Origin: Gammaproteobacteria bacterium
Lineage (GTDB): Bacteria > Pseudomonadota > Gammaproteobacteria > Acidiferrobacterales > Sulfurifustaceae
Length of the DNA stretch: 34,844 bases
NCBI GenBank assembly: GCA_016194665.1
Contig: JACQBD010000155.1
Span: 1 to 34,844 of the forward strand
Direction of reading: 5' to 3'
This document shows positions 1 through 28,112 of this stretch, in pieces (within the stretch, counting starts at the first letter, position 1; the number at the start of each line of letters is the position of its first letter). The notes under the pieces are model-generated. The model was not told the DNA's origin and did no database searches. It worked only from the letters and a program-made list of their open reading frames with translations. The position numbers and the translations under genes are program-made.

Positions 1-2430
1 AATATTAAGTATATCGGTTGCGGGAGCTGTAACACTGTTGAGTGAAGTCCGCCCGTTGTTAATTGCCGGCGCGCCAGCCTTAAGTTGATAGTTATCCGTT
101 GGGACGCTGACAAAAAGACTGGACGGTGTAGTAACGAAGGAATTGGCATCATAGCCCGCGGTTATCCAAGCGATTAAATCGATTACCGTGCTTTCGCCGT
201 TGAAGGATAAGCGGCCGACGAGGGCGTTATTGTTGCTTATGAAGTTGGTATTCGCCACAGAGATGCTCCCGGAGGCGCTGTCGCTGAGCAGAATATTATT
301 GAAGATGGTGTGCCCGCCGAGATCTTCACTCAGTTTGAGCGCCCAGCCGCCGCCACTCGGAGCAAGCAAGGTATTGTTCACGATTTTTAAATTTTTCGGA
401 CCGGCAGCGGCGTCTATTTGGAAAGCGCGCAGGGCGTTGCGTCCGTTTTTATAGATAACATTATTCTGAATCAAGGAATCTTGTACGCCGTCCATGTCCA
501 AACCATTATCGGTATTGCTATACAGAATATTATTTTCAATCGTCAATCCGCTGTGCAAGCCATCGCCGCCGACGCTCAAGTCGCCATTAAAGTGAATGCC
601 ATTTTTAGCGTTATTGAAACAACGATTGCCGCGCAAGATAGTGTTATCCGAACCGCCGTTGGCCAGATAAATACCATGGCTCGCGGCTGATCCGCTGGCG
701 CTGTTGCCTTCGACCAAGGAGTCCGCGACTTCTGAAAGATAAATATTGGTGGAACCGGAATTTTGCACGGTGTTATTGCGGACGATAAGCCCATGCATAG
801 GATTGTCAGGTGTGGCGTTGTGGGTCGCTAAGCCGTAGCCCGACATACCGGTGATGGTGAATCCTTCGATGGTCACGTAACTCGCGTTGTTGATCGTGAT
901 GCCTTCGCCGCTGCTATTGGCTTGATTGATCAAAGCAGAGCTGCCTTGCGCCTTGATCACAATCCGGTTCGACGGATTACCGCTCGCGGCTATCGTGAAG
1001 CCACTATAAGTGCCGTCATACACCAGCACCGTATCGCCGGGGCGCGCCACGTTTACCGCGGATTGGATCGTGGAGTATTCTTGCGTCGCCGCTCCGGCGC
1101 TGTCGTCGACGCACAATATGGTCGAACTACTGCAAGCCAATGGCGCCGAGGTCGTAAAAGTCCAGCTGTAGTTCGATGCCAAGGCGTTGCCCGCGGCATC
1201 TTTTACGCCATTGCTGCCGCCGACAATCGTCGCGGTATAAGTGGTCGAGCTGGCTAACGCGCTGGACGGCGTAAAAGTGGCGCTGGCGCCGTTGACGCTC
1301 ACGCTGCAGCTCACGCCATTAAGCGTAAATGTCGTCGTGGTAATAGAAGCGGCGCTCATTATTTCGCTGAAGCTAACGGTAATCGCGCCGCTGATAGAAA
1401 CATTGCCGGCGCCGCTGATAGGAGTCGTCGAAGAAACGGTCGGCGGCGTAGTGTCAGGCGCTGTGTAAGTGACCGTTAAGACATCGGTGCTCATGTTGCC
1501 GGCGGCATCGCGCGCTGTCAGTGTGATGACATTGCTGCCGCTTTGTAGTGTGATGTTAGTGACAGTCCAGGAAGTTGTTCCGCTTGCGTTGCCGCTGCCA
1601 CCGCGATCATTCGCCCAGGTTACTTGCGTTACGCCGACATTATCCGCAGCGCTGCCGCCGATGTTGAGGGTGCTGCTGGAAGTGGAGTAAGTAGCGGTGC
1701 TTGTCGGTGAGCTGATGGTGACGGTCGGAGGCGTGGTGTCGCCGGTGGTGCCGGTGGAATAGGTGACAGTCAGGGCGTCGGTGTTGACGTTACCGGCGGC
1801 ATCGCGCGCGGTGACGGTAATGACGTTGCTTCCCGTTTGTAAAGCGATGTTGTTCGCGTTCCATGAAGTGGTGCCGACGGCCGTGCCGTTGCCGCCGCGA
1901 TCGTTCGACCAGGTTACTTGCGTGACGCCTACATTATCCGCGGCGCTGCCGCTGAGGTTAATGGTGCCGCTGGAAGTGTTATAAGTAGCGGCGCTGGTAG
2001 GAGTGCTGATGGTCACGGTGGGCGGGGTGCTATCGGTGCTGGTGCCCGTGGAATAGGAAACAGTTAAGACGTCAGTGCTAATGTTGCCTGCCGCGTCGTG
2101 GGCGGTAACGGTAATGACGTTACTGCCGGTTTGCAGAGTAATATTGTTTGCGTTCCACGTGCTGCTGCCCGTAGCGGTGCCGTTGCTGCCACGATCGTTC
2201 GACCAAGTGATCTGCGTGACGCCGACATTGTCCGAAGCGGTGCCGCTAAGATTCAGCGTTGCGCTGTTGGTGCTATAGCTGGAAGCATTGGTAGGACCGG
2301 TAATGGTAATGATGGGCACGGTGGTATCGCTCGCACTGCCGCCAGAACCGCTGCCAGTGCCACCACCGCTACAAGCATTTAAAAAAAATGCCGCAGCCAA
2401 AAGCAAAGCAAGAATGCATTTATTTCGCAT
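1..2430 (-). CDS. Secreted lipoprotein with Ig-like repeats and a right-handed beta-helix (protein A, partial)
   Basis: Minus-strand reading frame open from an ATG at 2430 to the window edge, 810 codons with no stop; the C-terminus lies outside the window. The N-terminus is a lipoprotein signal (MRNKC, a hydrophobic run, then FLNAC with the lipid Cys at residue 20). Next come a Gly/Ser linker, three Ig-like repeats of about 98 residues (roughly residues 33-323), a different Ig-like domain of the SbsA/Big_5 type (about 325-430), and a right-handed beta-helix beginning at CSSSTILCVDD with many Asn-rich turns. The beta-helix is closely similar to the first one of the neighbouring protein B. It is the last visible gene of a C-B-A operon, 20 bp after B. 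The substrate is unknown; beta-helices of this kind occur in polysaccharide lyases, epimerases and adhesins. Being anchored to a membrane by lipid is inferred from the lipobox. Confidence 0.85.
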   Translation of the reverse strand, partial: MRNKCILALLLAAAFFLNACSGGGTGSGSGGSASDTTVPIITITGPTNASSYSTNSATLNLSGTASDNVGVTQITWSNDRGSNGTATGSSTWNANNITLQTGSNVITVTAHDAAGNISTDVLTVSYSTGTSTDSTPPTVTISTPTSAATYNTSSGTINLSGSAADNVGVTQVTWSNDRGGNGTAVGTTSWNANNIALQTGSNVITVTARDAAGNVNTDALTVTYSTGTTGDTTPPTVTISSPTSTATYSTSSSTLNIGGSAADNVGVTQVTWANDRGGSGNASGTTSWTVTNITLQSGSNVITLTARDAAGNMSTDVLTVTYTAPDTTPPTVSSTTPISGAGNVSISGAITVSFSEIMSAASITTTTFTLNGVSCSVSVNGASATFTPSSALASSTTYTATIVGGSNGVKDAAGNALASNYSWTFTTSAPLACSSSTILCVDDSAGAATQEYSTIQSAVNVARPGDTVLVYDGTYSGFTIAASGNPSNRIVIKAQGSSALINQANSSGEGITINNASYVTIEGFTITGMSGYGLATHNATPDNPMHGLIVRNNTVQNSGSTNIYLSEVADSLVEGNSASGSAASHGIYLANGGSDNTILRGNRCFNNAKNGIHFNGDLSVGGDGLHSGLTIENNILYSNTDNGLDMDGVQDSLIQNNVIYKNGRNALRAFQIDAAAGPKNLKIVNNTLLAPSGGGWALKLSEDLGGHTIFNNILLSDSASGSISVANTNFISNNNALVGRLSFNGESTVIDLIAWITAGYDANSFVTTPSSLFVSVPTDNYQLKAGAPAINNGRTSLNSVTAPATDILNI
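1462..2332 (-). repeat. Three tandem Ig-like domain repeats in protein A
   Basis: Three units of about 294-297 bp, each encoding an Ig-like domain. They start near DTTxPxxTIxxPT, run through GVTQxTWxNDRG and end at TARDAAGN or a close variant. The units differ at many positions but keep codon phase and length, as expected from in-frame duplication. Confidence 0.8.
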
Positions 2431-2450: not shown

Positions 2451-5400
2451 TTAGGGGTAAATGCCAAGAGGAATCGGACTACCGAGGTATTCCCAGATAT
2501 AAGTGGTCAATGTGACGGGGCCTACATTTCCCAAGCGTTGGCCGGTGGCGCAAAAACCGCGCGTGGTGCCGGCGCACATTTCGCGCTTGATGCGGTCTTC
2601 ATTCGGCCACGGCCACAGGGAAGTCGAGCTCAGCGTGTTGTAGCCCGCATCGCCAAAGCGCGCGCCATCCGCACCGTAGCGATACAAAATATTGGCGCCG
2701 ATATCCGCGCCGCCAAAACCCTTGCCGTTTAGCAATGAGCCGGCTTCGATGCGCGTGAGATATTTAAGCGACGGCGTAGCGCCATCCGCGCGCGGATTGC
2801 TGGTGTAGCAGGCAACGGAACAGCTGGTCTGGTTATAGGCGCCATAGGCGGCGCTGTAGACATCGACATAGCTCAGCGTGTACGCCGAGTTAATTCCATA
2901 ATGGCCGCTATTGGTGGAAATCACGTTGCGCAGAATGCCGCTGGTTAATTCCGGCGCCACGCGCACGCCATCGTCGCCGCGGCCGTAAGCGGTGAGATTT
3001 TCTAAAAGACCACTGGGCGCATTGCGCGCGATGTTAAAGCCGCCGCCGGCGGCATCCCATGCCACGGCGTTGGAAATTTTAATGCTGGGATCGGTGGCCG
3101 CATCCGGTTCCATGTAATAGCCGTTATCCGGCGAGTTCAGCGACAACGTGCCGAGCCATTCGGCGCGCCCAAAAATCGGACCGGGATCGTGTTGCGCGAC
3201 CGCGAAATCGGCATACGGTGAACCGCCGCCGAGAATGCGATCGACCACGATAACGTTTTGCAAGGAAACGTCGGTTGAATTGTAGACGGTGATGCCGACG
3301 TTGGGATTGCCGCTGCCGCTGCAAGCGGACGTGCCGCAACCATCGCCGCGTACTAGCACGCGGCGCCACACGTTATGGCTGGCGCGGTAATTGATGGCAA
3401 TGATGCGTTCATTTTGGGCCCAGATCCAAACATCTTCGATCAAGTCGTAGTCGTTGCCGTAGTCATGATCGTTAGTGCCGATGCCAAACGCTCCGTGGAA
3501 ACCGCAATCTTTGACGGTGACGTAACTGGTGTTATAGAGATCGCCGCCGCCTTCGAAGGTGATGCCTTGAATTTTTATGAAGCTGTCTTTGCGCGTCGAG
3601 CGTCCGATAAACAGGCCACCTTGAATCACCACGTTGCCGGGATTTAATGCATGCACATAAGTCATGTTACTGATATTTGTACCCGAGGGCGGTTGCGCGG
3701 AAGCGTTACCGAGATAGCTGATATAACCGGTACCGGCGGATTCCGAATAAGCGCCATCGAGCAAAATCAATTCATCGCCGGCTTTCATGTTGGTGAAAGC
3801 CTTGGAAAAAGTTTTCCAAGGACTGGAAAGCGACTTACCGGTATTGGCGCTGTCGTTGCCGTTGGGGGCAAGATAAAAAGTAGTGCGCGTGACAGGAGTG
3901 CTGATCGCGCCGCTGCTGTAAGTAACGCTCAGTGTGTCGCTGCTGTTATTACCTGCGGCATCGCGCGCCGTCAGCGTAATCGTGTTCGTGCCATTTTGCA
4001 GAGCGATGCTGGCTACGCTCCATGACGTAGTACCGCTGGCCGTGCCGCTGCCGCCCAGACTGTTCGACCAACTCACTTGCGTCACCCCGACGTTATCCGC
4101 AGCGGTGCCCGCCAGATTTAACGTGTTGGACGAAGCGGCATAAGTCGTGTTGCTGGTGGGAGCAGTGATGGTGAGAGTAGGAGGCGTGGTATCCGCCGGC
4201 GCGCTGGGAGCATAACTGACGCTTAACGTATCAACGCTGCTATTTCCCGCCGCATCGCGCGCTGTTACCGTAATCGTATTGGTGCCGTTTTGTAGCGCAA
4301 TACTGCCGACGCTCCATGACGTAGTACCGCTGGCCGTGCCGCTGCCGCCCAAACTGTTTGACCAGCTCACCTGCGTGACAGCTACATCATCCGCAGCCGT
4401 GCCTGCCAGACTTAATGTATTCGATGAAGCTGTGTAGGTTGTGCTGCTGGTAGGAGAAGTAATGCTGACTGAGGGAGGAGTGGTATCGGTGGGAGTGCTT
4501 GAGCCTGTCGAAGAACCGCCGCTAGAACTAGGGGGCGGGGGCGATGGGGCCGGCGTAGGCTCGGGCGGAGGGGCCGAGCTGCCAATATAGAGCGATTCAT
4601 AAGCGCCAATGTCATAAGTAGTTCCTTGCGGACGCACGACATCGCGGATGTCGATACTAGGCGCATAAACGTAATTTAAGACGGAAGTGCCATGATCGAT
4701 AGCGACAGCGCCATTTTTTAGATCATAGTTTCCCGCGGCCATGTCCATAAACAGCGAAGCCGACGTAGAGATTAAAGAATTGCTGTCGTAGCCTTGGCTT
4801 TGCCATTGAGGCAAATCAATGATCGTGGATTCTCCGTCGAGCGAAAATTTTCCAGTGACAACATTGCTGTTGCTAACGAAGTTTGAATTACTGACAACGA
4901 TACTGCCGTTGCTGCCGTTATTCATGAGAATGTTATTAAAAATGGTATGCCCGCCCTGATCGGCTGTGAGCTTGATGGCCCAGCCGCCACCGTTAGGCAC
5001 GACAAAAGTATTATTGAATATCCTAAGATTTTTCGGACCTTGCGCCGCATCTATTTGATAACTGCGCAAAGCATGAGGAGTATTGTTGTAAACGAGATTA
5101 TTCTTAATAGTAGAGCGGCCCACGCCATCCATATCGAGACCGTTATTTTTATTGTTATAAATTATATTTTTTGCCACCGTCAAACCGGTTTGATAACCAT
5201 CGCCGCCGACACTGGCGTCGCCATTAAAATGAATGCCGGCTTTAGCGTTGTTGAAGCACCGATTCCCGCGCAAAATTGTTCGGTCCGATCCGGCATTGGC
5301 GAGATAGATTCCATGGCTGGCGATGGAACCGCTGGCGATATTTTTTTCAATGAGCGAATCGGCGACTTCCGACAAATAAATATTGCTCGAGTTTGAATTC

Positions 5401-5855
5401 TGTACAATGTTATTGCGTAGCGTGATGCCGTGCATGGGGTTGGTGGGGCTGGCGTTATGCGCCGCCACGCCGTATCTCGGCATGCCGGTAATAGTAAAAC
5501 CATCGATAGTGATATAGCTGGCGTTACTGAGTGTGATGCCTTCGCCATTATCGTTGGCGCTGTCGATCACGGCCGAAGTTCCTTGGGCTTTGATCGTGAT
5601 GCGATACACCGATGTTCCGCTGGCGGATATCGAAAACCCGCGATAATTTCCGTCGTACACTAGAACGGTATCGCCTGGCTGCGCGACATCTACGGCTGCT
5701 TGAATGGTGGAGTATTCTTGGGTGGCGCCGACCGCGTCATCCACGCACAGTACGGTTGAGCTGCTGCAACTGAGCGTTTCGGCGCCCGAAATATTATTGA
5801 TACCGAATAAAAATAAAACGCTTAAAAATTTTAGGCAAAGCTTTCCCATGTCCAT
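2451..5855 (-). CDS. Secreted double beta-helix protein with two Ig-like domains (protein B)
   Basis: 1134 residues. The ATG at 5855 has GGAG eight bases upstream, which favours it over the ATG two codons later. A classical signal peptide (MDMGKLCLKF, hydrophobic run, cleavage near SGA-ET) without a lipobox predicts release rather than lipid anchoring. Order of parts: beta-helix 1 (about residues 28-420, starting CSSSTVLCVDD and ending DIGAYE), a Pro/Ser/Thr linker, two Ig-like repeats (about 455-650), then beta-helix 2 (about 660-1134, starting TTFYLAPNGND and ending IWEYLGSPIP). Beta-helix 1 matches protein A; the Ig repeats plus beta-helix 2 match protein C almost throughout. Paired cysteines in beta-helix 2 (CGTSAC, CSVAC, CAGTTRGFC) suggest disulfides. 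No catalytic residues could be assigned. It sits 48 bp after gene C and 20 bp before gene A, so all three are probably cotranscribed. Confidence 0.88.
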   Translation of the reverse strand: MDMGKLCLKFLSVLFLFGINNISGAETLSCSSSTVLCVDDAVGATQEYSTIQAAVDVAQPGDTVLVYDGNYRGFSISASGTSVYRITIKAQGTSAVIDSANDNGEGITLSNASYITIDGFTITGMPRYGVAAHNASPTNPMHGITLRNNIVQNSNSSNIYLSEVADSLIEKNIASGSIASHGIYLANAGSDRTILRGNRCFNNAKAGIHFNGDASVGGDGYQTGLTVAKNIIYNNKNNGLDMDGVGRSTIKNNLVYNNTPHALRSYQIDAAQGPKNLRIFNNTFVVPNGGGWAIKLTADQGGHTIFNNILMNNGSNGSIVVSNSNFVSNSNVVTGKFSLDGESTIIDLPQWQSQGYDSNSLISTSASLFMDMAAGNYDLKNGAVAIDHGTSVLNYVYAPSIDIRDVVRPQGTTYDIGAYESLYIGSSAPPPEPTPAPSPPPPSSSGGSSTGSSTPTDTTPPSVSITSPTSSTTYTASSNTLSLAGTAADDVAVTQVSWSNSLGGSGTASGTTSWSVGSIALQNGTNTITVTARDAAGNSSVDTLSVSYAPSAPADTTPPTLTITAPTSNTTYAASSNTLNLAGTAADNVGVTQVSWSNSLGGSGTASGTTSWSVASIALQNGTNTITLTARDAAGNNSSDTLSVTYSSGAISTPVTRTTFYLAPNGNDSANTGKSLSSPWKTFSKAFTNMKAGDELILLDGAYSESAGTGYISYLGNASAQPPSGTNISNMTYVHALNPGNVVIQGGLFIGRSTRKDSFIKIQGITFEGGGDLYNTSYVTVKDCGFHGAFGIGTNDHDYGNDYDLIEDVWIWAQNERIIAINYRASHNVWRRVLVRGDGCGTSACSGSGNPNVGITVYNSTDVSLQNVIVVDRILGGGSPYADFAVAQHDPGPIFGRAEWLGTLSLNSPDNGYYMEPDAATDPSIKISNAVAWDAAGGGFNIARNAPSGLLENLTAYGRGDDGVRVAPELTSGILRNVISTNSGHYGINSAYTLSYVDVYSAAYGAYNQTSCSVACYTSNPRADGATPSLKYLTRIEAGSLLNGKGFGGADIGANILYRYGADGARFGDAGYNTLSSTSLWPWPNEDRIKREMCAGTTRGFCATGQRLGNVGPVTLTTYIWEYLGSPIPLGIYP
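3905..4490 (-). repeat. Two tandem Ig-like domain repeats in protein B
   Basis: Two units 294 bp apart. They share an uninterrupted identical tract of about 43 bp (4015-4057 and 4309-4351), which points to recent duplication or gene conversion between them. Confidence 0.8.
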
Positions 5856-5903
5856 ACGATGAACTCCATCCTTGTTGTTCTAAGCGGTTAGAGTTGTGGA
5901 AAG

Positions 5904-8180
5904 CTAATAGATTCCCGAAGGAATCGGGTTTCCAAGAAATTCCCAGATATAAGTAGTAAGAGTTGTTGGGCCGAGATTGCCCAGACGTTGACTTGAAGAA
6001 CAAAAACCACGTGTCACACCGCTGCACATTTCACGCTTAATACGATCTTCATTCGGCCACGGCCATAGCGAGGTTGAGCTGAGTGTGTTGTAACCCACAT
6101 CGCCGAAGCGCGCGCCATCCGCGCCATAGCGGTATAAAACATTCGCACCGATATCCGCACCGCTGTAGCCGATCCCTTTAAGAGCCGAGCCGGACTCGAT
6201 GCGAGTGATGTATTTCAGCGAAGCAACTGAGCCGGTAACGGCGAGGATCGGATTTAAAACGTTACAGCCGATTGTGCAGCTGGTCTGGTTGTAAGCGCCT
6301 CTGCTGGCGTTATATACGTTCACGTAGCTTGGGGTGTATTTAGAGTTAATGCCGTAACCGCCGGCATTTACCGAAATGACGTTACGCAAAGTCCCGCTGG
6401 TCAATTCCGGGGCGACGCGCACGCCGTCATCGCTGCGCCCGTAGGCCGTCAGGTTTTCCAGCAAATTATTGGTGCCGGTGCGCGCCAGATTAAAACCACC
6501 GCCCGCGGCACTCCAGGCCACGGCATTGGAGATCTTGATGGTTTGATCGACACTGGTATCCGGCTCCATATAATAGCCGTTATCCGGCGAGTTCAATGAA
6601 ATCGTGCCAAGCCATTCGGCGCGGCCGAAAACCGGACCAGGGTCGTGTTGTGCTACCGCGAAATCGGAGTAAGGCTCATCGCCGCTCGCCAAGATACGAT
6701 CCACCACCATGACGTTCTGCAAGGAGACATCCATCGAGTTATAGACGGAGATGCCGACATTGGGATTTCCACTGCCGGTGCAAGAAGAGGTGCCGCAACC
6801 GTCGCCACGCACCAGTACACGGCGCCAAACGTTGTGATGCGCGCGATAATTAATCGCGACCACGCGCTCGCCCGTAGCCCATATCCAAACATCTTCGACG
6901 AGATCGTAATCGTTGCCATTGTCGTGATCGTTGGTGCCGATGCTGAAGGCGCCATGAAAACCGCAATCTTTAAGTGTGACGTAACTGGTATTGTAAAGAT
7001 CGCCGCTGCCTTCAAAAGTAATTCCTTGGATCTTGATAAAGCTGTCTTTGCGCGTCGAACGTCCAATGAACAAGCCGCCCTGAATCAAAACGCTGCCGGG
7101 GTGCAGAGCGTGCACGTAAGTCATGTTATTTATGTTAGCGCCGGAAGGAGGCTGAGCGGAACCGTTGCCGACCCAATTGATATATCCCGTTCCCGCGGAT
7201 TCTGAGTAGGCGCCATCCAGTAAAATCAATTCATCGCCACCCACCATGCTAGAGAAAGCTTTGGCAAAAGTTTTCCACGGACTCGATTCCGAACGGCCGG
7301 TGTTGCTGTTATCGCTGCCGTTGGGAGAAAGATAAAAAGTTGTGCGGCTGCTGCTGCCGCTGTTGTAAGTGACGATGAGTGTATCGCTGCCCGTGTTGCC
7401 CGCTGCATCGCGCGCGCTGACTGTGATCGTGTTGGTTCCATTCTGCAAAGCAATACCGCCTATGCTCCACGATGTAGTGCCGCTCGCTGTACCGCTGCCG
7501 CCTAAACTATTCGACCAAGTGATTTGCGAAACGCCGACATTGTCGGCAGCTGTGCCTGCCAGATTCAACGTGCTAGCAGAAGAGGCATAGCTGGTGCCAG
7601 TAGTAGGAGAGCTGATGGTAACCGTGGGAGAAGTGATGTCGCCGGAACTGCCGCTGGAATAACTAATGCCTATCGTGTCAGTGCCAATGTTACCGGCGGC
7701 ATCGCGCGCCGATATGGTGATGGTATTTAATCCGTTCTGTAAGCTAATGCCGCTGACGCTCCAGGAAGTCGTGCCGCTGGCGGTACCGCTGCCACCCGCG
7801 CTATTTATCCAAGTGACTTGGGTAACGCCAATGTTATCGGCAGCAGTACCGGCAAGATTTACGGTATTGCCGGTAGAGGTGTAAGTGGCGTTGCTGGTAG
7901 GAGAGGTAATGACGGCGCTCGGGCGAGTGGTGTCCGCCGTGCTACTTGAACCGCCGCTTGAGCCACCCGAGCTTCCAGAAGTTCCAGAACCTGAACCGCC
8001 TGATCCTGAAGTCGAAGACGTTAAAGTGGTGGTGGTCGTACCGCCACCGGTGTTACTGTTATTGCTGCTGGTACCGCCACCGCCGCAAGCGGTTAATAAG
8101 ACAAATGAGAATAGTAAGGCGACGAAGGACTGGCAGCTTGTGTTTTTAACTGCCAAACGTGGTCGGCGAGTGATTTCCAT
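5904..8180 (-). CDS. Beta-helix lipoprotein with two Ig-like domains (protein C)
   Basis: 758 residues, ATG at 8180 preceded by AGGGAG with a 4-base spacer. The N-terminus is basic, then hydrophobic, with lipobox LLTAC (Cys at residue 32), followed by a low-complexity Gly/Ser/Thr/Asn linker of about 45 residues. Two Ig-like domains follow (about 80-280), then a right-handed beta-helix (TTFYLSPNGSD to IWEFLGNPIP) that is closely similar to the second half of protein B, including the paired cysteines CGTSSC, CTIGC and CSGVTRGFC. It is the first gene of the C-B-A operon, and the 317-bp gap upstream should hold the promoter. The family is a generic parallel beta-helix; a polysaccharide-binding or -modifying role is inference only. 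It differs from B by lacking beta-helix 1 and carrying a lipid anchor. Confidence 0.88.
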   Translation of the reverse strand: MEITRRPRLAVKNTSCQSFVALLFSFVLLTACGGGGTSSNNSNTGGGTTTTTLTSSTSGSGGSGSGTSGSSGGSSGGSSSTADTTRPSAVITSPTSNATYTSTGNTVNLAGTAADNIGVTQVTWINSAGGSGTASGTTSWSVSGISLQNGLNTITISARDAAGNIGTDTIGISYSSGSSGDITSPTVTISSPTTGTSYASSASTLNLAGTAADNVGVSQITWSNSLGGSGTASGTTSWSIGGIALQNGTNTITVSARDAAGNTGSDTLIVTYNSGSSSRTTFYLSPNGSDNSNTGRSESSPWKTFAKAFSSMVGGDELILLDGAYSESAGTGYINWVGNGSAQPPSGANINNMTYVHALHPGSVLIQGGLFIGRSTRKDSFIKIQGITFEGSGDLYNTSYVTLKDCGFHGAFSIGTNDHDNGNDYDLVEDVWIWATGERVVAINYRAHHNVWRRVLVRGDGCGTSSCTGSGNPNVGISVYNSMDVSLQNVMVVDRILASGDEPYSDFAVAQHDPGPVFGRAEWLGTISLNSPDNGYYMEPDTSVDQTIKISNAVAWSAAGGGFNLARTGTNNLLENLTAYGRSDDGVRVAPELTSGTLRNVISVNAGGYGINSKYTPSYVNVYNASRGAYNQTSCTIGCNVLNPILAVTGSVASLKYITRIESGSALKGIGYSGADIGANVLYRYGADGARFGDVGYNTLSSTSLWPWPNEDRIKREMCSGVTRGFCSSSQRLGNLGPTTLTTYIWEFLGNPIPSGIY
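7350..7938 (-). repeat. Two tandem Ig-like domain repeats in protein C
   Basis: Two units of about 294 bp with the same phase and landmarks as those in protein B (PTxTISSPT, GTAADN, SGTTSWS, ARDAAGN). Confidence 0.78.
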
Positions 8181-8497
8181 TTAGCTCCCTAATCTCATTT
8201 AATTAAAATTGTTTTTAAAATGTCGCCAGTACCTGGCTGCACTAAAAATGTTAAAGCCTTCAAGACATCGTTAATATAGGGTGAAAACCTGTTATTAAAC
8301 ATAGGGAAGCAGATTTGCGGGAGGTTATTCCTGATGAGTGGCGGCGTATCCGACGGGAGTAAAAGTCTAGGCTGCCAACGGCGACCGCAAAAATTTTTAT
8401 ATCTAAACTCGTCGCCAAATAACGGCAGCGCGGCCTTGGCGCGAAACGATGTAACTTTGGTAATGAATACAATTTAAAAACACTGAGAAAATTGGCA
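8181..8497. promoter_or_regulatory. Divergent intergenic region between the beta-helix operon and the epimerase gene
   Basis: 317 bp with no convincing gene. It must carry promoters for both directions. A short perfect inverted repeat GCCAG-TAC-CTGGC lies at 8225-8237, about 45 bp upstream of gene C, and could be an operator or a 5' leader hairpin. The gene C side is AT-rich. On the epimerase side TACAAT at 8468-8473 is a possible -10 element, but no good -35 is seen. I recognised no known riboswitch here. Confidence 0.4.
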
Positions 8498-9415
8498 ATG
8501 AATATATTGATCACCGGCGGCGCCGGCTTTATCGGCTCGCATCTCGTCGAAAAATTATTGGCGGATGGAAATAAGATCAAAGTTTTGGACGATCTTTCTA
8601 CCGGCAAACGCGAAAATCTCCCACGTCATGCGGCGCTTGAATTTATCGAAGGCGATATTCGCGACGTCGGCAGCGTTAATCGTTGCGTAGCAGGCATGAA
8701 CGCCATCGTGCATCTCGCCGCCGTGGCCTCGGTGCAGGCGAGTATCGATGATCCGATTCGTACGCATCAAGTTAATTTCGACGGCACGCTGAATTTGCTC
8801 GAAGCCGCGCGTCGCTTGGGCGTCAAGCGTTTTGTGTACGCGTGTTCCGCCGCGGTATACGGCGATACGGTAAACGTGCCGGTGGCTGAAACATTAACGC
8901 CGAATCCCTTATCGCCTTACGCCGTGGATAAATTAGCCGGCGAATATTATTTGTTGCATTATCACCGCAAATACGATTTGGCCACGACCTCGTTTCGCTT
9001 TTTTAATATTTACGGTCCACGACAAGATCCGTCTTCGCCTTATTCCGGCGTGATTAGTATTTTTGTCGATCGTTTGCGGCGCAACGAAGCTGTTACCATT
9101 TTCGGCGACGGCGAGCAAACACGGGATTTTGTCTACGTGCAAGATTTAGCTGCGTTGTTGGCGCGCACGGTGCAAGGCGCGGACGGCGTCGGCGGCGTGT
9201 TCAACGTCGGCACAGGCGTGCGCCATTCTTTACTACAGTTGTTGGGCCATCTCGAAAAATTATCCGCCAAGAAAATCGAAAGGCGGCATGTACCGGCGCG
9301 TCTCGGCGATATTCAGCATTCATGCGCGGATGTATCGCGGCTCAAAAGTATTTTTACCCAGGCGCCGTCGACACCGTTCGATCGCGGCTTGAAAAACTTG
9401 CTGGATTCGTTGTGA
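8498..9415 (+). CDS. NAD-dependent epimerase/dehydratase (UDP-glucose 4-epimerase-like)
   Basis: 305 residues, extended short-chain dehydrogenase family acting on nucleotide sugars in the cytoplasm. The Rossmann motif GGAGFIG is at residues 7-13, the catalytic Tyr-Lys pair at Y141 and K145 (YAVDK), and the active-site Ser at S117 (ACSAAVYGD). FRFFNIYGPRQ and DFVYVQDLA are family landmarks. The frame could open at a TTG six bases earlier, but the ATG at 8498 starts the standard MNILITGG and has GAGA nine bases upstream, so I use it. The protein is shorter than classic GalE (about 340 residues) and resembles the sugar epimerases of polysaccharide gene clusters. The exact substrate cannot be read from the sequence. 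It is a single gene, convergent with the next one and only 6 bp from it. Confidence 0.88.
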   Translation: MNILITGGAGFIGSHLVEKLLADGNKIKVLDDLSTGKRENLPRHAALEFIEGDIRDVGSVNRCVAGMNAIVHLAAVASVQASIDDPIRTHQVNFDGTLNLLEAARRLGVKRFVYACSAAVYGDTVNVPVAETLTPNPLSPYAVDKLAGEYYLLHYHRKYDLATTSFRFFNIYGPRQDPSSPYSGVISIFVDRLRRNEAVTIFGDGEQTRDFVYVQDLAALLARTVQGADGVGGVFNVGTGVRHSLLQLLGHLEKLSAKKIERRHVPARLGDIQHSCADVSRLKSIFTQAPSTPFDRGLKNLLDSL

Positions 9416-19179: not shown

Positions 19180-22100
19180 TTACGGCGTTACTTGCAGCAG
19201 CTCGCGGCAGTGGGTGAACAGCAGTATTAAACGAATTTTCTTTTGCGGCCAAAGTTGTTGCACACCCAGCGCGTATTGGCGTATTTGCGGAAAAAAATCC
19301 GGCGCCAATTGCCGTATGTTTTGCGGCGTGGCGTGCGCATGGGTTTTGTAGTCGATAAGAATAATTTCTGTTTCGCGAATGATGAGCCGATCCACCACGC
19401 CATAAATATCCCGTCCGTTATCGCGATAAAGAATCGGAACTTCATTGCGCGCGTCCTGATCGGCGCGCGGCTCGAACAAATCCCGGAAAGCAGGATGATC
19501 CACCACCGCGCAGGCTTCCTTCCAGCAGGCAGCGAATTCTTGATGAGCCAGCGTCGCATCGAATTCGCGGTGCATTCTTTTCTCAATGGATGTTCGATCG
19601 CCGTCATTGGACAATTGTTCGAGCATGCGATGAATCGCGATACCGCGATTTGGTAACGCAGTTATCGTTTCGGGTGCGGTCGTATCGGTTTCGTTGTCTT
19701 CCACGGGATTCATCCAACTGGGATGGAGCAAGCCTATTTCAGGCGCGACCGGCAGCGGATGCATCAATGCCGGATCGATATGAAAATATTGTATCGCTGG
19801 GATCGATGATTTCATTTGTGCCGCGCACATCGCCGGATCGCCAAACTTAAGTTGCGCGCAAGTATTGAAAATGGTGCCGTCGTCGCTGTGTATATGTCGC
19901 AGTATCAGGCGGGAAACTTGCGCGCGTTCGGTTTGTTCGGCGGCGCGCAGGCGCTTTTCGATAAATCCATACCAGCCACGCCCGCCGCGGCCCGGCTCGC
20001 AGCCTGAAATGAACAGCATTTGTTTGGCGCGCGTGAGCGCGACGTATAACAGATTAGTTTCTTCGCGCTGCGTGGCGAATTTCTGACCGTACAGCAAGCT
20101 TTGACTGATATCGTCCTGATATTTCTTGTTGCCGATTAAATGAAAATAACGCGGCCGCGCATCGGTGGCGGGCCATTCCACCAGTGCGCGCGCACCGCTG
20201 TTGCGTTGACCGCCGTCGCGCGCCGCGTCCGCTAGAAATATTACCGGAGCCTCGAGTCCTTTCGCGGCATGAATGGTCATGATGCGTACGCGCGGTTCGC
20301 GGTTCCAGGCGGGCTCCGCCGGCGTTTCGGTATCGTCTTGCGCGCGTCTTTGCAAATGCGCCAGAAAACGCGACAGACTGGGATAGCGTCCGCTGTCGAC
20401 GTCGAGCGCGATTTCCAGAAATCGATTGAGATTGGCTTCCACGCGCGCGCGTAGATGCGGCGGAGCGGCGGCGATATAGCGCGCGATTAAATTGCTTTCG
20501 CAATAAATTCGATCGAGTAAATCGTGCACCGGTATGCGATCGGCATAACCGTTCCAGTTCGGCAGTAATTCTTGTGCGCGCATCAGCGCTGCAGAGGCTT
20601 TATCGGGGCTGTCTAATTTTTTTAGACGCTCAAACCATGAGCCGGATGTCTGCTGCGCTAAAAGTAACAAGTCAGCGTCGGCTACGGCAAAGATGGGCGA
20701 GCGCAACACCGATGCCAAAGCCAGATTGTTATAAGGCTCGATAAGCGTTTGCAGCAGATGCATCAAATCGCGTACTTCCAGCGATTGCAAAAACGATCCG
20801 CGGCCGGTGCCGGTGTAAGCGATACCGGCGCGGCGCAGGGCGTCTTCATACAGGCGCGCATGATTGCGATCGCGCAACAATATAATGATATCGGCGCCGT
20901 TGACAGGGCGGACCTGCGCTTTATCGCTGATCGGCATGCCGATAATTTCTTTGATCTTGTTTGCTATCACTGCGCCTTCTTGATGGTGACGCGTGTCCTC
21001 GTCCGTTTGCAGCGGTTGTTCGATCGGATTGCGCCAGGTTGGCGCGTGCGCGTCGGCAAGTTTTTTTGGACGTGCTATTAACGGCAATAATTCCACATGA
21101 CCCCAGAGTTGTTGTTGATGCGTGGCATGCGCTTGGAAATCTTTTAATGAGTAATCTTCGATTATTTCGTTTTGTTCCGTGGTGCTATCTCGAAAAAGAA
21201 GATTGACGAAATCGATGATGGCGGGCGAAGAGCGCCATGAAATGTGCTGCGTGAAACTTTGAGTTTGCGGATGTTGTTGCAGCCAGCGATGCGCCGCGTG
21301 AAACAACTGCGGATCGGCGCGCCGAAAGCGATAAATCGATTGTTTTTCATCGCCCACCAGAAATATGCTGCGGTTGCGTTCGGGATCGCCCGCGACCATT
21401 TCTTCCAGCAAGGGTAACAGCAGGCGCCATTGGGTGGGGTTGGTGTCCTGAAATTCATCCACCAGCAAATGATCGATGCGTTGATCGAGCTTGTACTGCA
21501 CCCATTCGGCGTAGCGGCTGCGCGTGAGCAGTCGATAGGTTTTCCATTCCAGATCGGCGAAGTCGAGCCAGCCGCGTTCGGCTTTGATTCGTTGATAAGC
21601 CTGCAGCAGCGCCGCGCCGCAAACATACCACGCGCGCGACAGCTTCAGCGTTTGACAGCGTTGATAGCACGCTTGCGTCGCCAGCAGTCGGTCGCCAATT
21701 GTCTGTTGCAGATGCAGTAGTTCTTGTGCGCCCGCGGCGCCGATTTTTTTTATCAGCGTTTGCGTAGCTTTGATTTGACGCGGTTCGAGTTTTTCGGTGA
21801 AGAAAACCCGCATGACATGCGCGAAGCTGGTGACAGACGACGTGTTATCGGTTAAGGCGTGCGTGATGATTTCGATGAATTCTTGATGGGTCGCGGTGGC
21901 ATGGCCGGATAATAATTCAGCGTAACGTTTAAGCTGCTGACGGTTAGGTGCATCGTTAAGAAAGTCTCCGTGGGGATCGAGTTCTTCAGAAACTTGTAAC
22001 AAGTCTTGCAGTTGTCGCGTGGCGGTCTCTACCGGGTGCGCTGCATTTTCCGTGTAAGCCCACCAATCGCTGCGCTGCGTTAAAAAATCCTTAAGCAGCT

Positions 22101-22650
22101 GGCGGGTGGTGCTGACGCTGCCGTTGTCTCTTAATAAGGAATCCAGGGCGCGCGCCACCGGAGTTTCTTTGTTGCGCCCGAGATTTCGTTCGAAAATAGC
22201 CCAGGCGGCGTCGACCAATTCTTCCGTCGATTCGATTAATTCAAACCCCGGTGGCACGTCTGCTTCCAACGGAAAGCGCCGCAGAATTTCTTGGCAAAAA
22301 GCGTGGAAAGTGGTGGTGCGCAAAGTATGCAGCGCGCTGAGATGTTTTTCATACAAATCGCGCGCTAACGCGCAGCTTGCGGAATCGGTGGCGGCGCCCA
22401 ATTCCTTAAGTTGTTGCACCAGGCTTGGTTCGTCGCAAACGGCTAAATTCAATAAGCGTTGTGTGACCCGTTCATAAATTTCCCCGGCGGCTTTGCGCGT
22501 GAAACTGATAGCGAGAATCGCGCCGGGTTCGCTGCCTTGTAACAGCAAACGAATAATGCGGCTGGCGAGCAGCCAGGTTTTACCGCTGCCGGCCGCGGCT
22601 TGCACTACCACATGGTTTTCCGGCGCGGCCGCCAGCGCTGTATCAATCAC
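19180..22650 (-). CDS. addA: AddA-like UvrD-family helicase-nuclease
   Basis: 1156 residues. A superfamily 1A helicase with Walker A AAAGSGKT (18-25), Walker B LLVDEFQDTNPTQW, motif VGDEKQSIYRFRRAD, motif V IMTIHAAKGLEAPVIFL and motif VI LLYVALTRAKQML. The C-terminus is a RecB/AddA-type nuclease with D1087, D1100 and K1102 (GVVDRL then LIDYKTH). Together with the AddB-like protein upstream it should resect double-strand breaks for RecA. The start is forced: the frame opens at a TAA at 22690-22692 and the GTG at 22650 is the first usual start, with no clear ribosome site. The gap to addB holds a terminator and a probable small RNA on the other strand, so this gene may need its own promoter. 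Family naming is inferred from domain order; RecB-like variants are the alternative. Confidence 0.88.
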   Translation of the reverse strand: MIDTALAAAPENHVVVQAAAGSGKTWLLASRIIRLLLQGSEPGAILAISFTRKAAGEIYERVTQRLLNLAVCDEPSLVQQLKELGAATDSASCALARDLYEKHLSALHTLRTTTFHAFCQEILRRFPLEADVPPGFELIESTEELVDAAWAIFERNLGRNKETPVARALDSLLRDNGSVSTTRQLLKDFLTQRSDWWAYTENAAHPVETATRQLQDLLQVSEELDPHGDFLNDAPNRQQLKRYAELLSGHATATHQEFIEIITHALTDNTSSVTSFAHVMRVFFTEKLEPRQIKATQTLIKKIGAAGAQELLHLQQTIGDRLLATQACYQRCQTLKLSRAWYVCGAALLQAYQRIKAERGWLDFADLEWKTYRLLTRSRYAEWVQYKLDQRIDHLLVDEFQDTNPTQWRLLLPLLEEMVAGDPERNRSIFLVGDEKQSIYRFRRADPQLFHAAHRWLQQHPQTQSFTQHISWRSSPAIIDFVNLLFRDSTTEQNEIIEDYSLKDFQAHATHQQQLWGHVELLPLIARPKKLADAHAPTWRNPIEQPLQTDEDTRHHQEGAVIANKIKEIIGMPISDKAQVRPVNGADIIILLRDRNHARLYEDALRRAGIAYTGTGRGSFLQSLEVRDLMHLLQTLIEPYNNLALASVLRSPIFAVADADLLLLAQQTSGSWFERLKKLDSPDKASAALMRAQELLPNWNGYADRIPVHDLLDRIYCESNLIARYIAAAPPHLRARVEANLNRFLEIALDVDSGRYPSLSRFLAHLQRRAQDDTETPAEPAWNREPRVRIMTIHAAKGLEAPVIFLADAARDGGQRNSGARALVEWPATDARPRYFHLIGNKKYQDDISQSLLYGQKFATQREETNLLYVALTRAKQMLFISGCEPGRGGRGWYGFIEKRLRAAEQTERAQVSRLILRHIHSDDGTIFNTCAQLKFGDPAMCAAQMKSSIPAIQYFHIDPALMHPLPVAPEIGLLHPSWMNPVEDNETDTTAPETITALPNRGIAIHRMLEQLSNDGDRTSIEKRMHREFDATLAHQEFAACWKEACAVVDHPAFRDLFEPRADQDARNEVPILYRDNGRDIYGVVDRLIIRETEIILIDYKTHAHATPQNIRQLAPDFFPQIRQYALGVQQLWPQKKIRLILLFTHCRELLQVTP

Positions 22651-22912: not shown

Positions 22913-25837
22913 TTAAGATATCGTTGCGTCCGTTTCAAGCCACATTTCGCGGCGGCATATTCCTTCCATGTCGCAACGCTCGCAAGTTTCACTGTCGCCC
23001 CAAGCAGTCAGCGGCATTTCTTGATCCAAAAGATATTTGAGATGCAGTAATCGTTGTTGCATCGCGATGCCTAGTGTTGCCAGATTTTCTTCATCCAGCC
23101 GCATTTTTTCCGTCACGTCGCCGTCTTGTATCGACAGAAACAAGGCCTGAGTAATTTTTTCTGGTTCCATGAGCAAGGCGTAAAAAGGAAGTTGAATTTT
23201 TTCGCCTTGCATGACTGAGTCGCGCGTAGGAATCACGCCGGTTTTATAATCGATTAGGCGCAGGCCATGAACGCCGCGATCCAATCTATCGATGCGCCCC
23301 GTAATCGATAGCCGCGCGTCCGCGACCTGATAGTCGCGGGTTTTTTTTAATTCGGTCGCCTGTATTTGCCAAGCTGCCGAGCTTTGTTTTTCCCATTCGA
23401 GATAAGCCGGAATACAGACCTCCCAGCGATACAACCAACCGCGCGTAAAAAAACGTCGGCGCAGATCATTGGCGAATACCGCGGCGGTGATTTCGCGTAG
23501 CAGTTTTTCCGCCTCGGCCATGTTTTGTGCATGCAAGCGCGCGCGCCACGGGCCGGGTAGTCCGGGCACACCGCTGTGAAAAGCTTGTAGAATGCGGTGA
23601 ACGTAAGTGCCGAAATCGACTTTTTCCATTTCTTCGCGGATTTGTTGTTCCGCGGCCAGACCTAAACCGCAGGCATATAAAAATTGATACGGACAATCCA
23701 TCAAACGTTGATAGTCCGTGGCGCTGAATATTTCCGGCAACAAGCTTGCCGGTAGCCGCGCTGCCGGGCGCGACACAGATGTTGGCAGCGGCGCTGAGCG
23801 TTCGACGATCAGCGTATCGGCTTGCTGCACCAGCCATTCAAGTTCGGCATCGGCCAAACTTTCCTGATACGCCAGCGCATGAAAACTGCGCAGTCTTTCA
23901 ACCCACGGGCTTGGGACCAGCTTTTCACCCCGATTTTCACGTCGCAGGCTGATCATGACGCTGGGCGCGGCTTCCAGTAAACGCCGAAAATCGGCAAAGT
24001 GTTCGGCGTAACGGCGCGCGAGCGACGGTAAGCCAAGCTCGCTGCGTACGCCATCGTTAAAGTAAGGCGGGACACTGATGTTGCCCGGAAGTTGTTCGCG
24101 CACCGCACCGGCGATGATCAAGGCATCAAACCGATAAAGCCGGCTTTCGGCGAAGCTCATGAGCTCCACGCCGCGCCCCTGCATCGGCGGATGGAAACGT
24201 TGTTGCTCCATATTACGTTTGAGCCATTGATGAAATTCCGGCCATGTCAGGCGCAGTCCACTGTCGCTGGCGGCGCCGCGCATCTTTTCCAACACAGTCA
24301 ACAGCTCGCGACCGGCGCCGTCATTTTGATAGCTTGCGCTTAAACCTAGTTTCTGAAGGCTGTCGTGCAATGCTTCTAAAAGAGACAAGCCGGATTGCGG
24401 TCGATCGTGTGTTAGCGTCGATAAAGTGGCGGCGGCATTTTCCAGTCGTTCCAATAACAACGTCAGCGCATGCACGGCATCGACGTCGAATTCTGCATGC
24501 GGCATATTTTTCGTCCGTTCCAGCGCGAAGCGATAATTGTCCAGGCCCGAAGCGATGTTAAAAGCGCGCACGATATTCTGTTCGAATATCGGCGCCATCC
24601 GATTCAATTCGCCGCGCGTGAAACCGAGCGAGAGAAACGGCGATTTAAGTAGATCCAGCAGCGGCTGATGCGAAAAATTTTGCTCCAGGCATTCCAACCA
24701 GCGCACCAAGACGGTCGCGGCGCTGGTGGTGGATAGCGCCCAGCCTCCCGCGTCTTGCAAGCTGACATGCGCGCGCTCGAGCAGGGCGCGTACGCGTCGC
24801 GCCAGTTTGCGATCATGCGTGACAATGCCGATATCGCGATGTCCCTGCACTAACCAGCGCCGCACTTGTAAGTCGATGGCGCGCGCTTCAAATTCCGCAT
24901 CGGCCGCTTCGTGTATGGTTAGGCGCGCGCGCGCCGGGCTGCTGGCTGCCTGTATCTTTTGTAGATGCGCGCGTTCATGCAGCGTGCCTCGATGGTGCGT
25001 ATAAGTGTTTTCCAGAAAAATAGAATACGGATCTTTAATAACTATTGGAGCGATCGCGACATTGAGCTTTTGCAACAGACTGGCAACGGGACTTTTTTGA
25101 TGGTCTGCTTGCTGGTCAACTTGCCCCTGCAGTAACAGTGTTAACCGACGCTGCGCGTGCAGCGCTTTAAGCCATTCGATTTCCGCGGGCGCGAATTCTA
25201 AAAATCCTGTTACATAAATTTGCGTGTTGACCGGCAGTTTTTTTAGACTGTGACGCAAGCCGTCTATGGTTTGCAAAGTTTGATCTTGTAGTTGATTTTT
25301 GTGTAAGGTTTCGCGCCACGCGCTCCATAAACGATGAACTAAACGAACTTCGTCTTCATAAGTAAAAAAATCATCGGGGTTGGCGCGGTAGTTTCGGAGT
25401 TGGCGCACAAATGCTTCGGTGTCGGCGCTGATATCGCATCGGTGCCGGGTCAATTCATCGAACAGGGTTAGCAAACTATCGATCAGCGGCCAGGCGCTGT
25501 AATGATCGCGCCATTCAGGAAAATCATTCAGCAAACCCAGTAATAAAATTTCACGCGCACTGGAAGTTAACGAACGTTTGTTGTCGTCGCTGAATTGACG
25601 CGCCCACGCGGCTAGCGTGCCGCAGTAAGGAGCGAGTAACGCGGGGTAACCTGCGCGCGCGGCCTGCTCGCGCAGGATTTGCCGAAAACGCGGTACCGCG
25701 CCGGCATGCGAAAATAAAATAATCGGCTGACTTAAGTCAGGCAGCGACTCGCGGTGTTGCGCGAGTAGCAGCGAGGCGAGCTGATGTAGCGGATCTACTC
25801 CGTAAGGAACAAGCTGAATACTGCTGTCAGCGTTCAA
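22913..25837 (-). CDS. addB: AddB-like PD-(D/E)XK nuclease with iron-sulfur staple
   Basis: 974 residues, a relative of AddB and of the ~900-residue 'probable DNA repair protein' family. The C-terminal nuclease has D850, D863 and K865 (GRIDRL then LIDYKTG). The iron-sulfur staple is present: C715 (DCPYQF) plus C952, C955 and C961 (C-x2-C-x5-C) around the nuclease. The middle retains degenerate helicase features but no Walker A, as in AddB. The start is forced to be TTG at 25837, because an in-frame TGA lies three codons upstream; it overlaps the fdxA end by 11 bp, suggesting coupled translation. It partners with the AddA-like protein in double-strand-break processing (inferred from family and adjacency). 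Confidence 0.85.
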
Positions 25838-26150: not shown

Positions 26151-26340
26151 CATTTTTCTCCAACATTAAAAGCGGGCGAATAATACACGCGCCATTGGCT
26201 AGGGGGAATACGCGCGCCGATCTCTTTTACTTACGGCGGGAATCCAATGCTTCGATCGAAAAATCCTTAAATATCAGGGGCGCTTGAATACTTTACCGCT
26301 GGCTAGCACAACCGCCCTGGCGGCCGGAGGCAAAAAGCTG

Positions 26341-26351
26341 TGCTATATAAT
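26341..26351 (+). promoter_or_regulatory. Candidate extended -10 promoter of the PilZ gene
   Basis: TG-C-TATATAAT, an extended -10 pattern with no good -35. If real, transcription starts near 26358, downstream of the GTG at 26340, and favours the GTG at 26394 as the true start. Confidence 0.35.
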
Positions 26352-26393
26352 CAATTGATAGTATTCAGGAAACAAATACCCTCGGAGCGATGT

Positions 26394-28112
26394 GTGCCGG
26401 TGCTTAATCTTTCAATGCCGACGAAACGTGTTTCCGCGTGGATGGCGGAAACCGATCCAAAATACGCGCGCGCGTGGCTCGCGACCTTGCCGTTAGCCGA
26501 TAGCGCCGAATCAGCCCGAGAGATTTACCAGGCTTTATATACCCTGAATCGTCAGGAGCTCGATGCGGCTTGCCGTTTTGAGCTGATGGAACTTTATACT
26601 CGCCCGATTGCCACCGTCACCGCCGCACTGGAGCCATATTTCGCCCGCGCCGCATTACCGCTCACGCCCAAGAAACGACAGCTTGCCGAATTCATACGTC
26701 AGTTGCACATGGAGATGGCGTATGGTTATAAGGGATGTTTGCAGGATTTTGAAAAACAGCGCCTACGTTGGACCAAAAAATCTTTGCGCATTACATCGCT
26801 GGAGCGCGCGCTGCATTATCTCGGCGAGGTGCTGTTGCATTCTTATCAAGTGTACATGCCGTTTCCCACCAGCACCTGGCGCGAAATCCACGCCATTTAT
26901 CGTTACGCCGCGGAACAGAACATGACCGCGGAAGTCATCGACGCGCCGCCGCCGGAAACCGGCAAGACCACCTTAGCGCACGACTACGTAAGAATTTTAT
27001 TGCTTGGATTAAGCAACCCGTATCAATTGCCGCAAAACGAATGCCGCTATGTGCAGCGTTTTTTACAACATTGGGGCGCGAAGGCGGTGTTACGCAATAA
27101 TTTAGAACCGCCGCATCCCGGCGGACATTTCCTGCTCGACCTATCGAGCGACTCTGCGCCGGTTCCATTTCCGCGCGAACCGCGGTTCAAGCCGGAACAA
27201 GATTTGCGTCTATTGGACGCCAGCGAATTGTTGCAGACCGTGCAATTTTTTATCCAACGTTTAAAAAACGGCGACCGCGCGCGTTCGCTTTCGCTCGGCA
27301 TCGATTGTCTTGATTCGGTTTGTCTGGAAATGTTGCAGCGCATGCTGAAGTCGTGGGGGCTGACGCCGCGCCGCCAATACTCGCGTATTCAGCGCAGCGG
27401 CCCGGTATTCTTGTGCGCTGGTTTGTCGGCGATACATTTTTTTTGCAGCGGCCAAAAACCGTTCATGCCGCCGGAAGCCAATCGGCGCGAATTGTCGGAT
27501 GAGAAATTCATCTTGCCGACGCACATCGAGCAAGACATCGCGCGCGAAGCGGATAATCAGGATGAAGAATTTATAGCGCTGGATGAGCCGGTCGAAAAAG
27601 AATCGCCAAGGCCCGCTGTCACCGCGGAATCATACAAAGTCAGCGGTGAAATGATGCATATCGATCGTTGGCAAATTAAGGACACAGCGCCGCGAGGCTT
27701 GCAATTGATTCGCCGCGGCGGTTCGCACACCTACTTGCGTGTCGGCGATGTCGTGGGAGTTCAGCAAATGGACGATGTCGGCCGCTGGGGCGCCGGCGTG
27801 GTGCGTTGGATGAAAAGTCCTGAGACCGACAAACTAGAAATGGGCGTTGAGCTGCTGTCGTCGAATATTCACGCCGCAGCCGTGGCGCTGGCGCGTGGCG
27901 CAACACGCGAATACAAACCGGTGTTGATTCTGCCGGCGATCGAGGCTTTACATCAGCCGGCCACTCTATTAGTGGCGCGCGGTCTGTTTACCACCGGTAA
28001 CGATTTGTGGCTCGCCGAAGAAGCCGCGGACATTCGCATCGTGCGCTTACTGCAACGATTCGAACACACAAGCATGTTTGAATTATTTGTTTTTGCGGAT
28101 GTGCTGACTTAA
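26394..28112 (+). CDS. Large PilZ-domain protein, probable cyclic-di-GMP effector
   Basis: 572 residues from GTG 26394 (GGAG six bases upstream), or 590 from GTG 26340, which also has GGAGG about nine bases upstream. The N-terminal ~400 residues are mostly helical and resemble an uncharacterised family often annotated as cyclic-di-GMP-binding or chaperone-like; no enzymatic motif is seen. The C-terminal region (from HIDRW, about residue 420 onward) reads as PilZ: DTAPRGLQL fits the D/N-x-S/A-x-x-G motif and GVVRWMK with GVELLS fits the later strands. The first PilZ motif is R-x-x-x-K rather than R-x-x-x-R, so ligand binding may be altered. No signal peptide or membrane helix is evident. It is a single gene between fdxA and the suhB remnant. 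Confidence 0.7.
   Translation: MPVLNLSMPTKRVSAWMAETDPKYARAWLATLPLADSAESAREIYQALYTLNRQELDAACRFELMELYTRPIATVTAALEPYFARAALPLTPKKRQLAEFIRQLHMEMAYGYKGCLQDFEKQRLRWTKKSLRITSLERALHYLGEVLLHSYQVYMPFPTSTWREIHAIYRYAAEQNMTAEVIDAPPPETGKTTLAHDYVRILLLGLSNPYQLPQNECRYVQRFLQHWGAKAVLRNNLEPPHPGGHFLLDLSSDSAPVPFPREPRFKPEQDLRLLDASELLQTVQFFIQRLKNGDRARSLSLGIDCLDSVCLEMLQRMLKSWGLTPRRQYSRIQRSGPVFLCAGLSAIHFFCSGQKPFMPPEANRRELSDEKFILPTHIEQDIAREADNQDEEFIALDEPVEKESPRPAVTAESYKVSGEMMHIDRWQIKDTAPRGLQLIRRGGSHTYLRVGDVVGVQQMDDVGRWGAGVVRWMKSPETDKLEMGVELLSSNIHAAAVALARGATREYKPVLILPAIEALHQPATLLVARGLFTTGNDLWLAEEAADIRIVRLLQRFEHTSMFELFVFADVLT

Follow-up and report, generated by a model that had tools for sequence, protein, structure and literature searches.

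Two linked beta-helix modules, separate and fused, in a gammaproteobacterial C-B-A gene cluster with a predicted role in EPS processing

Proteins of beta-helix fold that act on the exopolysaccharide (EPS) of the cell producing them are already a known kind, and phages of hosts with such enzymes direct beta-helix spikes of their own at the same polymer (PMC11637428, PMC7949094, PMC13320782). RbmB of Vibrio cholerae is a beta-helix VPS polysaccharide lyase encoded with EPS genes (PMC11637428), and WceF of Pantoea stewartii, a stewartan glycosidase with a tailspike fold and a trimer in its native state, binds and cleaves its host's own EPS (PMC7949094). Peru-2, a T7-like phage of V. cholerae, carries a beta-helix pectin-lyase tailspike (PMC13320782). 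Here we describe two further beta-helix modules, H1 and H2, encoded by three adjacent genes, C, B and A, and occurring separately in A and C and joined in B. No published account of an H1/H2 pair was found in a literature search; as far as the searched libraries and papers go, the recurring pair with fusions in both orders is new, and so is H2 as a family without a model that is common to EPS loci and phages.

The window analysed, 34,844 nucleotides, is the entire contig C197 of a draft metagenome-assembled genome (MAG) that is 82% complete; the sister genome G006, of the same genus, is 99% complete, and its genes are marked here with a prime. C, B and A lie head to tail on the minus strand and are transcribed in the order C-B-A, with intergenic gaps of 48 (C/B) and 20 (B/A) bases. 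Gene C (5904..8180, 758 aa; ORF call, profile search and BLASTP) encodes a lipoprotein composed of a signal sequence (8085..8180), two Big_7-like Ig domains (7362..7934; profile search and Ig tree) and helix H2 (5907..7346). Gene B (2451..5855, 1134 aa; ORF call and BLASTP) encodes the fusion protein H1-Ig-Ig-H2, in which an ordinary type I signal peptide (5781..5855) is followed by helix H1 (4581..5774; P0002, profile search and BLASTP) with a choice-of-anchor-Q-like C-terminus, a proline-rich linker, two Ig domains of C type (3915..4487; Ig tree) and helix H2 (2454..3887; P0001, BLASTP). Gene A (1..2430; ORF call, profile search and BLASTP) encodes a lipoprotein with a signal sequence (2371..2430) and helix H1 (1..1140; BLASTP and profile search); it is not simply Ig plus helix, because three Big_7-like Ig domains and one Big_5 domain lie between them (1150..2328; profile search and Ig tree). 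Gene A is truncated by the contig end, so that its 3' end and the C-terminus of its helix are lost and it comprises at least 810 aa; it falls beyond the coordinates 2451-8180 that the sequence-only reading gives for the cassette. To the right, a divergent GalE-type NAD-dependent sugar epimerase gene (8492..9415, plus strand; 76% to that of G006) is the conserved neighbour of the cluster.

Lipoboxes, taken as [LVI][ASTVI][GAS]C behind a hydrophobic stretch and judged by inspection, were seen in C (LTAC) and A (LNAC) and not in B, whose signal has an end of signal peptidase I type (..NISGA) and whose 'TLSC' has E at -4. This agrees with the sequence-only reading, which had taken A and C for lipoproteins and B for a secreted protein lacking a lipobox.

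H1 of A, B and A' scores above the curated cut-off for the right-handed beta-helix families PF13229 and PF05048 (NosD/Beta_helix). H1 of B also matches choice-of-anchor Q (NF041518) at 36.5 bits against a cut-off of 25 bits, as do H1 of A' (36.5 bits) and of Aliikangiella (46), A being truncated at that point. These families are broad and defined at fold level. H2 belongs to none of them by profile: it has no match to PF13229 or PF05048 above the cut-off nor to any other model in Pfam or NCBIfam, and C, made up of Ig domains and H2 only, yields Ig families only. The two helices are distant homologues of each other (hhalign probability 98.9; 19% identity over 180 columns).

Residues 431-810 of A align by BLASTP with residues 28-406 of B across H1 (380 residues, 65.5% identity, E 1e-158), and residues 457-1133 of B align with residues 83-758 of C across Ig-Ig-H2 (about 680 residues, 76.3% identity, E 0; 80% aa identity for H2 alone), both far above chance, while C and A have only Ig domains in common (about 60%). 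In maximum-likelihood trees, H1 of B falls in a clade with A and A' (support 100/98) and H2 of B in a clade with C and C' (100/97), and an origin of the modules from unrelated proteins is contradicted by both trees. B is thus, as judged from these alignments and trees, a genuine chimera of A-type and C-type parts. The sequence-only reading had composed B of the A-type helix followed by the Ig pair and second helix of C. For the helices the identities (65.5%; 76-80%) and the module-by-module phylogeny bear it out, and the Ig domains of B do group with the C type (100/98). The copying of the Ig pair as such is doubtful: Ig1 and Ig2 of B resemble each other most (84% aa) and could therefore have arisen by duplication inside B rather than as an intact copy of the C pair.

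Within the H1 clade, A and A' are sisters with B outside (98/96), a grouping of A with B is disfavoured (AU p 0.043), and H1 of A has 72% identity to that of A' versus 66% to that of B. Within the H2 clade, B and C are sisters with C' outside (96/90); C with C' gives p 0.031, and B with C' is not rejected (p 0.178). H2 of B is about equally distant from C and C', and the nucleotide sites in H2 come near a trichotomy (169 with B=C, 170 with B=C' and 135 with C=C'). Furthermore, dS is saturated and dN low among the modules, suggesting purifying selection on an old arrangement; by these comparisons, the chimera is about as old as, or older than, the divergence between the window species and G006, both members of one genus. 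The proposal of local duplication with recombination therefore survives as a tandem of related genes with domain recombination, and straightforward duplication of the present A and C finds no support, given the closer match of A to A' and the saturated dS. Recent gene conversion between B and C was rejected, as identity windows range over 62-82% with no high-identity tract. The 3' end of C' leans towards B in identity and ends in ..YP as B does, and we considered whether C' joins a 5' part from C to a 3' part from B, with B lost by crossing-over between H2 copies; the max-chi p of 0.16 leads us not to claim it.

A possible origin would start from tandem duplication of a C-A pair to C1-A1-C2-A2, followed by joining of the A1 helix to the Ig-H2 part of C2, which would give the observed order C-B-A. 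B would have arisen no later than roughly the divergence from G006, in which the gene was either lost or never present. This route needs a further step for the missing lipobox and missing N-terminal Ig domains of B, and a single duplication giving both halves of B is unsupported by the trees, where the H1 half of B seems the older of the two, although H2 of B, C and C' comes near a trichotomy.

In the sister genome G006, C' and A' adjoin the same epimerase gene and B is absent. The genes 3' of A' encode a methyltransferase/kinase-like protein, a GT2, a conserved 352-aa protein and three GT4s, and further along are an AMP-ligase, deacetylases, a lone H2 protein (D'), an O-ligase-like protein and a flippase. 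In the window genome, D occupies the corresponding stretch on contig C179. With 12 genes of the G006 locus as synteny probes, 10 of the 12 were recovered in G399, 8 beside an H2-H2-H1 gene set in Aliikangiella sp. G2MR2-5, 6 near a divergent H2 of G004 and 5 on contig C179. Among NCBIfam models, the XrtA polysaccharide deacetylase (TIGR03006) scores above its cut-off, and the XrtA-type ATPase, amidotransferase and O-ligase (TIGR03015, TIGR03108 and TIGR03097) score below theirs. Exosortase was found in G004, G006 and G007 of the genus, and no exosortase EpsH was found in the 82%-complete window MAG. A search of the window genome for the GT2 of G006, in pursuit of a contig between C179 and C197, gave no match, and the MAG probably lacks this stretch. 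Because the contig ends inside A and no exosortase was found in the MAG, the join to the EPS locus is drawn from G006, from whose synteny we infer that C-B-A forms the outer edge of an exosortase-A-like (XrtA/PEP-CTERM) EPS locus.

H1 and H2 recur together well beyond the window. Strong H1 matches were found in three genomes of the class survey (369 genomes, the window's own included) and, among the relatives surveyed, in G006; a phylum sample of 398 genomes gave none beyond the window's own. H2 occurs in 7 of the 369 class-survey genomes, and all genomes of the class and relatives surveys that gave a strong H1 match (G000, G006, G242 and G399) have H2 as well. With the window genome left out, both of the H1 genomes fall within the six H2 genomes out of 368, for which the chance is about 2e-4. 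In every H1 genome found, moreover, H2 is adjacent or fused to H1, mostly inside the conserved exosortase-A-like EPS locus. Among further loci, which were located through H2 and are thus a biased sample for pair linkage, H2-H1 fusions occur in L021, in L029 and, with three H2 segments, in L016; the two modules are adjacent in L024 and L018, and they lie close together in L051. L018 (9290-15390) comes from an isolate, Aliikangiella sp. G2MR2-5; there three lipoprotein genes stand next to each other as H2-H2-H1 within the same EPS locus, making the pair testable.

Both fusion orders exist, B being the only H1-first fusion seen. G399 has one H2-H1 fusion and, separately, an H1 adjoining an H2; its fused and unfused H2s are 87% identical and its two H1s 54% identical, a parallel to B in which, by these identities, a younger H2 copy is joined to an older H1. 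The linkers vary by lineage, with Big_7 in the window, PASTA/fn3 in G399, PKD in L021 and He_PIG in L016; by this comparison the helices are kept and the stalks exchanged between lineages. When the same two modules are fused repeatedly and in opposite orders, this is classically taken to mean that the two proteins cooperate; two beta-helices without annotation thereby become a pair open to test. Carriage of H2 by plasmids was rejected, since none of 72,556 plasmids had H2, and the H1-like beta-helices found there are only distant. For L016, L022 and L029 the bins are Spirochaetes or Pacearchaeota, but these H2/H1 loci are on short contigs whose binning may be wrong, so the taxonomic breadth of the modules is uncertain. 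In L017 (11529-20999), from a Patescibacteria MAG, a frame of 3157 aa comes after an H2 gene.

Several IMG/VR contigs also encode H2, as does the archaeal-virus genome vir555, where it stands at the end of the tail module. The best phage H2 (L057 5545-7392; G422:C1:15759-17147) has, for L057, 55% identity to the bacterial module by BLASTP and 59% in the profile alignment. The L057 contig is T7-like and encodes a terminase, a portal/adaptor protein, the major head protein and internal virion proteins; its H2 gene directly follows the ejection protein, a tail-fibre/spike position; T7-like phages keep a tail fibre or spike gene after the ejection protein. About 150 N-terminal residues precede H2 in the L057 protein, and phage H2 itself has no match in Pfam, NCBIfam or PHROGs. 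A, B and C have signal peptides and are not phage proteins. In the tree, phage and bacterial H2s interleave at several points, suggesting that H2 has moved between phages and bacteria more than once, the number of transfers being unsure because some bacterial contigs come from doubtful bins. H2 thereby gives a handle both on which polysaccharide these phages recognise and on bacterial matrix trimming. The sequence-only reading had not covered the setting in an EPS locus, the repeated occurrence of the H1/H2 pair in other genomes or the homologues in phages.

AlphaFold2 models of H2 (pLDDT 90.5) and H1 (pLDDT 88.9) of B are both right-handed beta-helices with the predicted fold of the PL9/PL6/RbmB-type lyase superfamily (Z 22-35). 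The structural matches of H2, AlgE4 (Z 26.9), Pel9A (24.9), RbmB (24.6), PL6 lyases and tailspikes, all lie within Z 22-27 with no clear winner. H1 matches the PL9 pectate lyase Pel9A (1ru4) first, at Z 34.6 (2.6 A over 316 residues, 19% identity; next match at 31), then AlgE, with RbmB at 29.3; its likeness to Pel9A is one of fold, with no significant sequence-profile match. By sequence profile H1 does match AlgE4 (E 1.5e-9), and its invariant His154 lines up with His196 of AlgE4, but the D-P-H motif is absent from H1 in the profile alignment, where A-V-R replaces D152-P153-H154. In 17 close H2 relatives, bacterial and phage (two are phage proteins), the polar residues E151, D152, R161, R175, R176, Y202, D216, R217, D227, H233, D254, E260 and D262 are invariant, which suggests a conserved pocket. 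A shared beta-helix fold by itself reveals no function, and the chemistry is not readable from the models.

RbmB (PDB 9ozl/9ozd) is likewise a beta-helix encoded with EPS/matrix genes, but has no detectable sequence relation to H1 or H2, and no H1/H2 pair is described for it; its activity is demonstrated, whereas H1 and H2 are likened to it by predicted fold and locus. WceF, like H1 and H2, is a beta-helix from an EPS cluster that resembles phage spikes; its resemblance is structural, whereas bacterial and phage H2 share up to 59% aligned identity. WceF is absent among the structural matches listed for H1 or H2, which excludes nothing. The arrangement shared with RbmB, WceF and Peru-2 favours, as the best reading, proteins that bind EPS and trim or remodel it. 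We therefore hold it to be fairly probable that C, B and A are surface and secreted proteins whose paired H1/H2 helices bind, and probably cleave or remodel, the EPS of their own locus. The analysis shows how the modules are composed and related by phylogeny, their recurrent linkage and fusion, the EPS locus by way of the sister genome, the confidently predicted folds and the phage relatives; substrate, catalysis, placement and order of action we infer as follows. H1 and H2 would work jointly on the polymer that the EPS locus produces, with C (H2) and A (H1) lipid-anchored at the cell surface on Ig stalks and B soluble and secreted, carrying one of each helix in a single chain. The modules would bind EPS and at least H2 would cleave or remodel it, and B might bridge EPS or work on it away from the cell surface. 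The lipoboxes thus make plausible a set with shared binding and different placement, as the sequence-only reading had supposed. More tentatively, H1/H2 could be an undescribed two-part EPS-processing system of two different beta-helix enzymes that act in sequence on one polysaccharide and stay together through linkage and repeated fusion in both orders, H2 having been taken up as a spike by phages of the EPS producers, or having passed the other way; we offer this as a possibility only. If it is true, the window holds the split and fused forms of one machine, differing in placement.

Lipoproteins on Ig stalks, beta-helix adhesins such as PfbA among the structural matches and the lack of an identified catalytic motif in H1 or H2 would also fit non-catalytic lectins or adhesins that only bind polysaccharide, own EPS or external, with B cross-linking matrix and cells, and WceF itself agglutinates like a lectin (PMC7949094). 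We nevertheless regard this as rather doubtful, since the invariant polar residues of bacterial and phage H2s suggest a conserved pocket and phages that use the beta-helix fold as spikes usually cleave. Glycan C5-epimerases working on EPS while it is made or once it is secreted, in the way AlgE/AlgG modify alginate, share the fold with H1 and H2, and AlgG is encoded in an EPS operon; the A-modules of AlgE4/AlgE6 are the first match for H2 and the second for H1, and such an activity would fit an EPS locus. Yet the DPH motif is missing from H1 when aligned to AlgE4, many lyases lie within 1-3 Z of AlgE4/AlgE6, no alginate genes were seen and phage spikes have no need of epimerases, so that we consider epimerases unlikely and lyase-like chemistry more likely than epimerisation for H2.

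The closeness of H1 to the fold of Pel9A could instead indicate secreted catabolic enzymes for foreign polysaccharides such as plant or algal pectin or alginate, standing near EPS genes incidentally. No sugar importer, TonB receptor or glycan-degradation genes adjoin the cluster, however, and the same EPS-synthesis genes adjoin H1/H2 in several lineages, which makes this quite improbable. That B is an assembly chimera of the MAG is hardly credible, even though the assembly is metagenomic with repeats nearby and G006 lacks B: the modules of B differ throughout from A (66% aa) and C (80% aa) and are therefore not pieces of either, a single uninterrupted 1134-aa frame runs across a unique linker, and independent H1/H2 fusions exist in other genomes. 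Own-EPS binding with probable cleavage or remodelling remains our preferred reading.

Some minor observations concern the EPS loci and the rest of the window. The roughly 352-aa protein is conserved in EPS loci across several classes at 45-58% identity with no Pfam or NCBIfam match (L030 10645-11700, minus strand; also L018 994-2127, L050 7969-9078, L033 12355-13533, L026 3569-4705 and L024 12815-14086). In the EPS locus L032 (932-3941), the gene after that of an asparagine-synthase-like amidotransferase encodes an NAD-synthase-like protein (PRK00876); the combination is unusual and might serve to modify the polysaccharide. At 26340-28112 of the window (plus strand), a 590-aa ORF with no Pfam or NCBIfam match stands between an AddAB-like pair and an FkbM methyltransferase. 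This pair (19180-22650 and 22913-25837, minus strand), in which a UvrD-like helicase with a PDDEXK nuclease adjoins a second PDDEXK protein, resembles an AddAB recombination system, RecBCD being more usual than AddAB in gammaproteobacteria.
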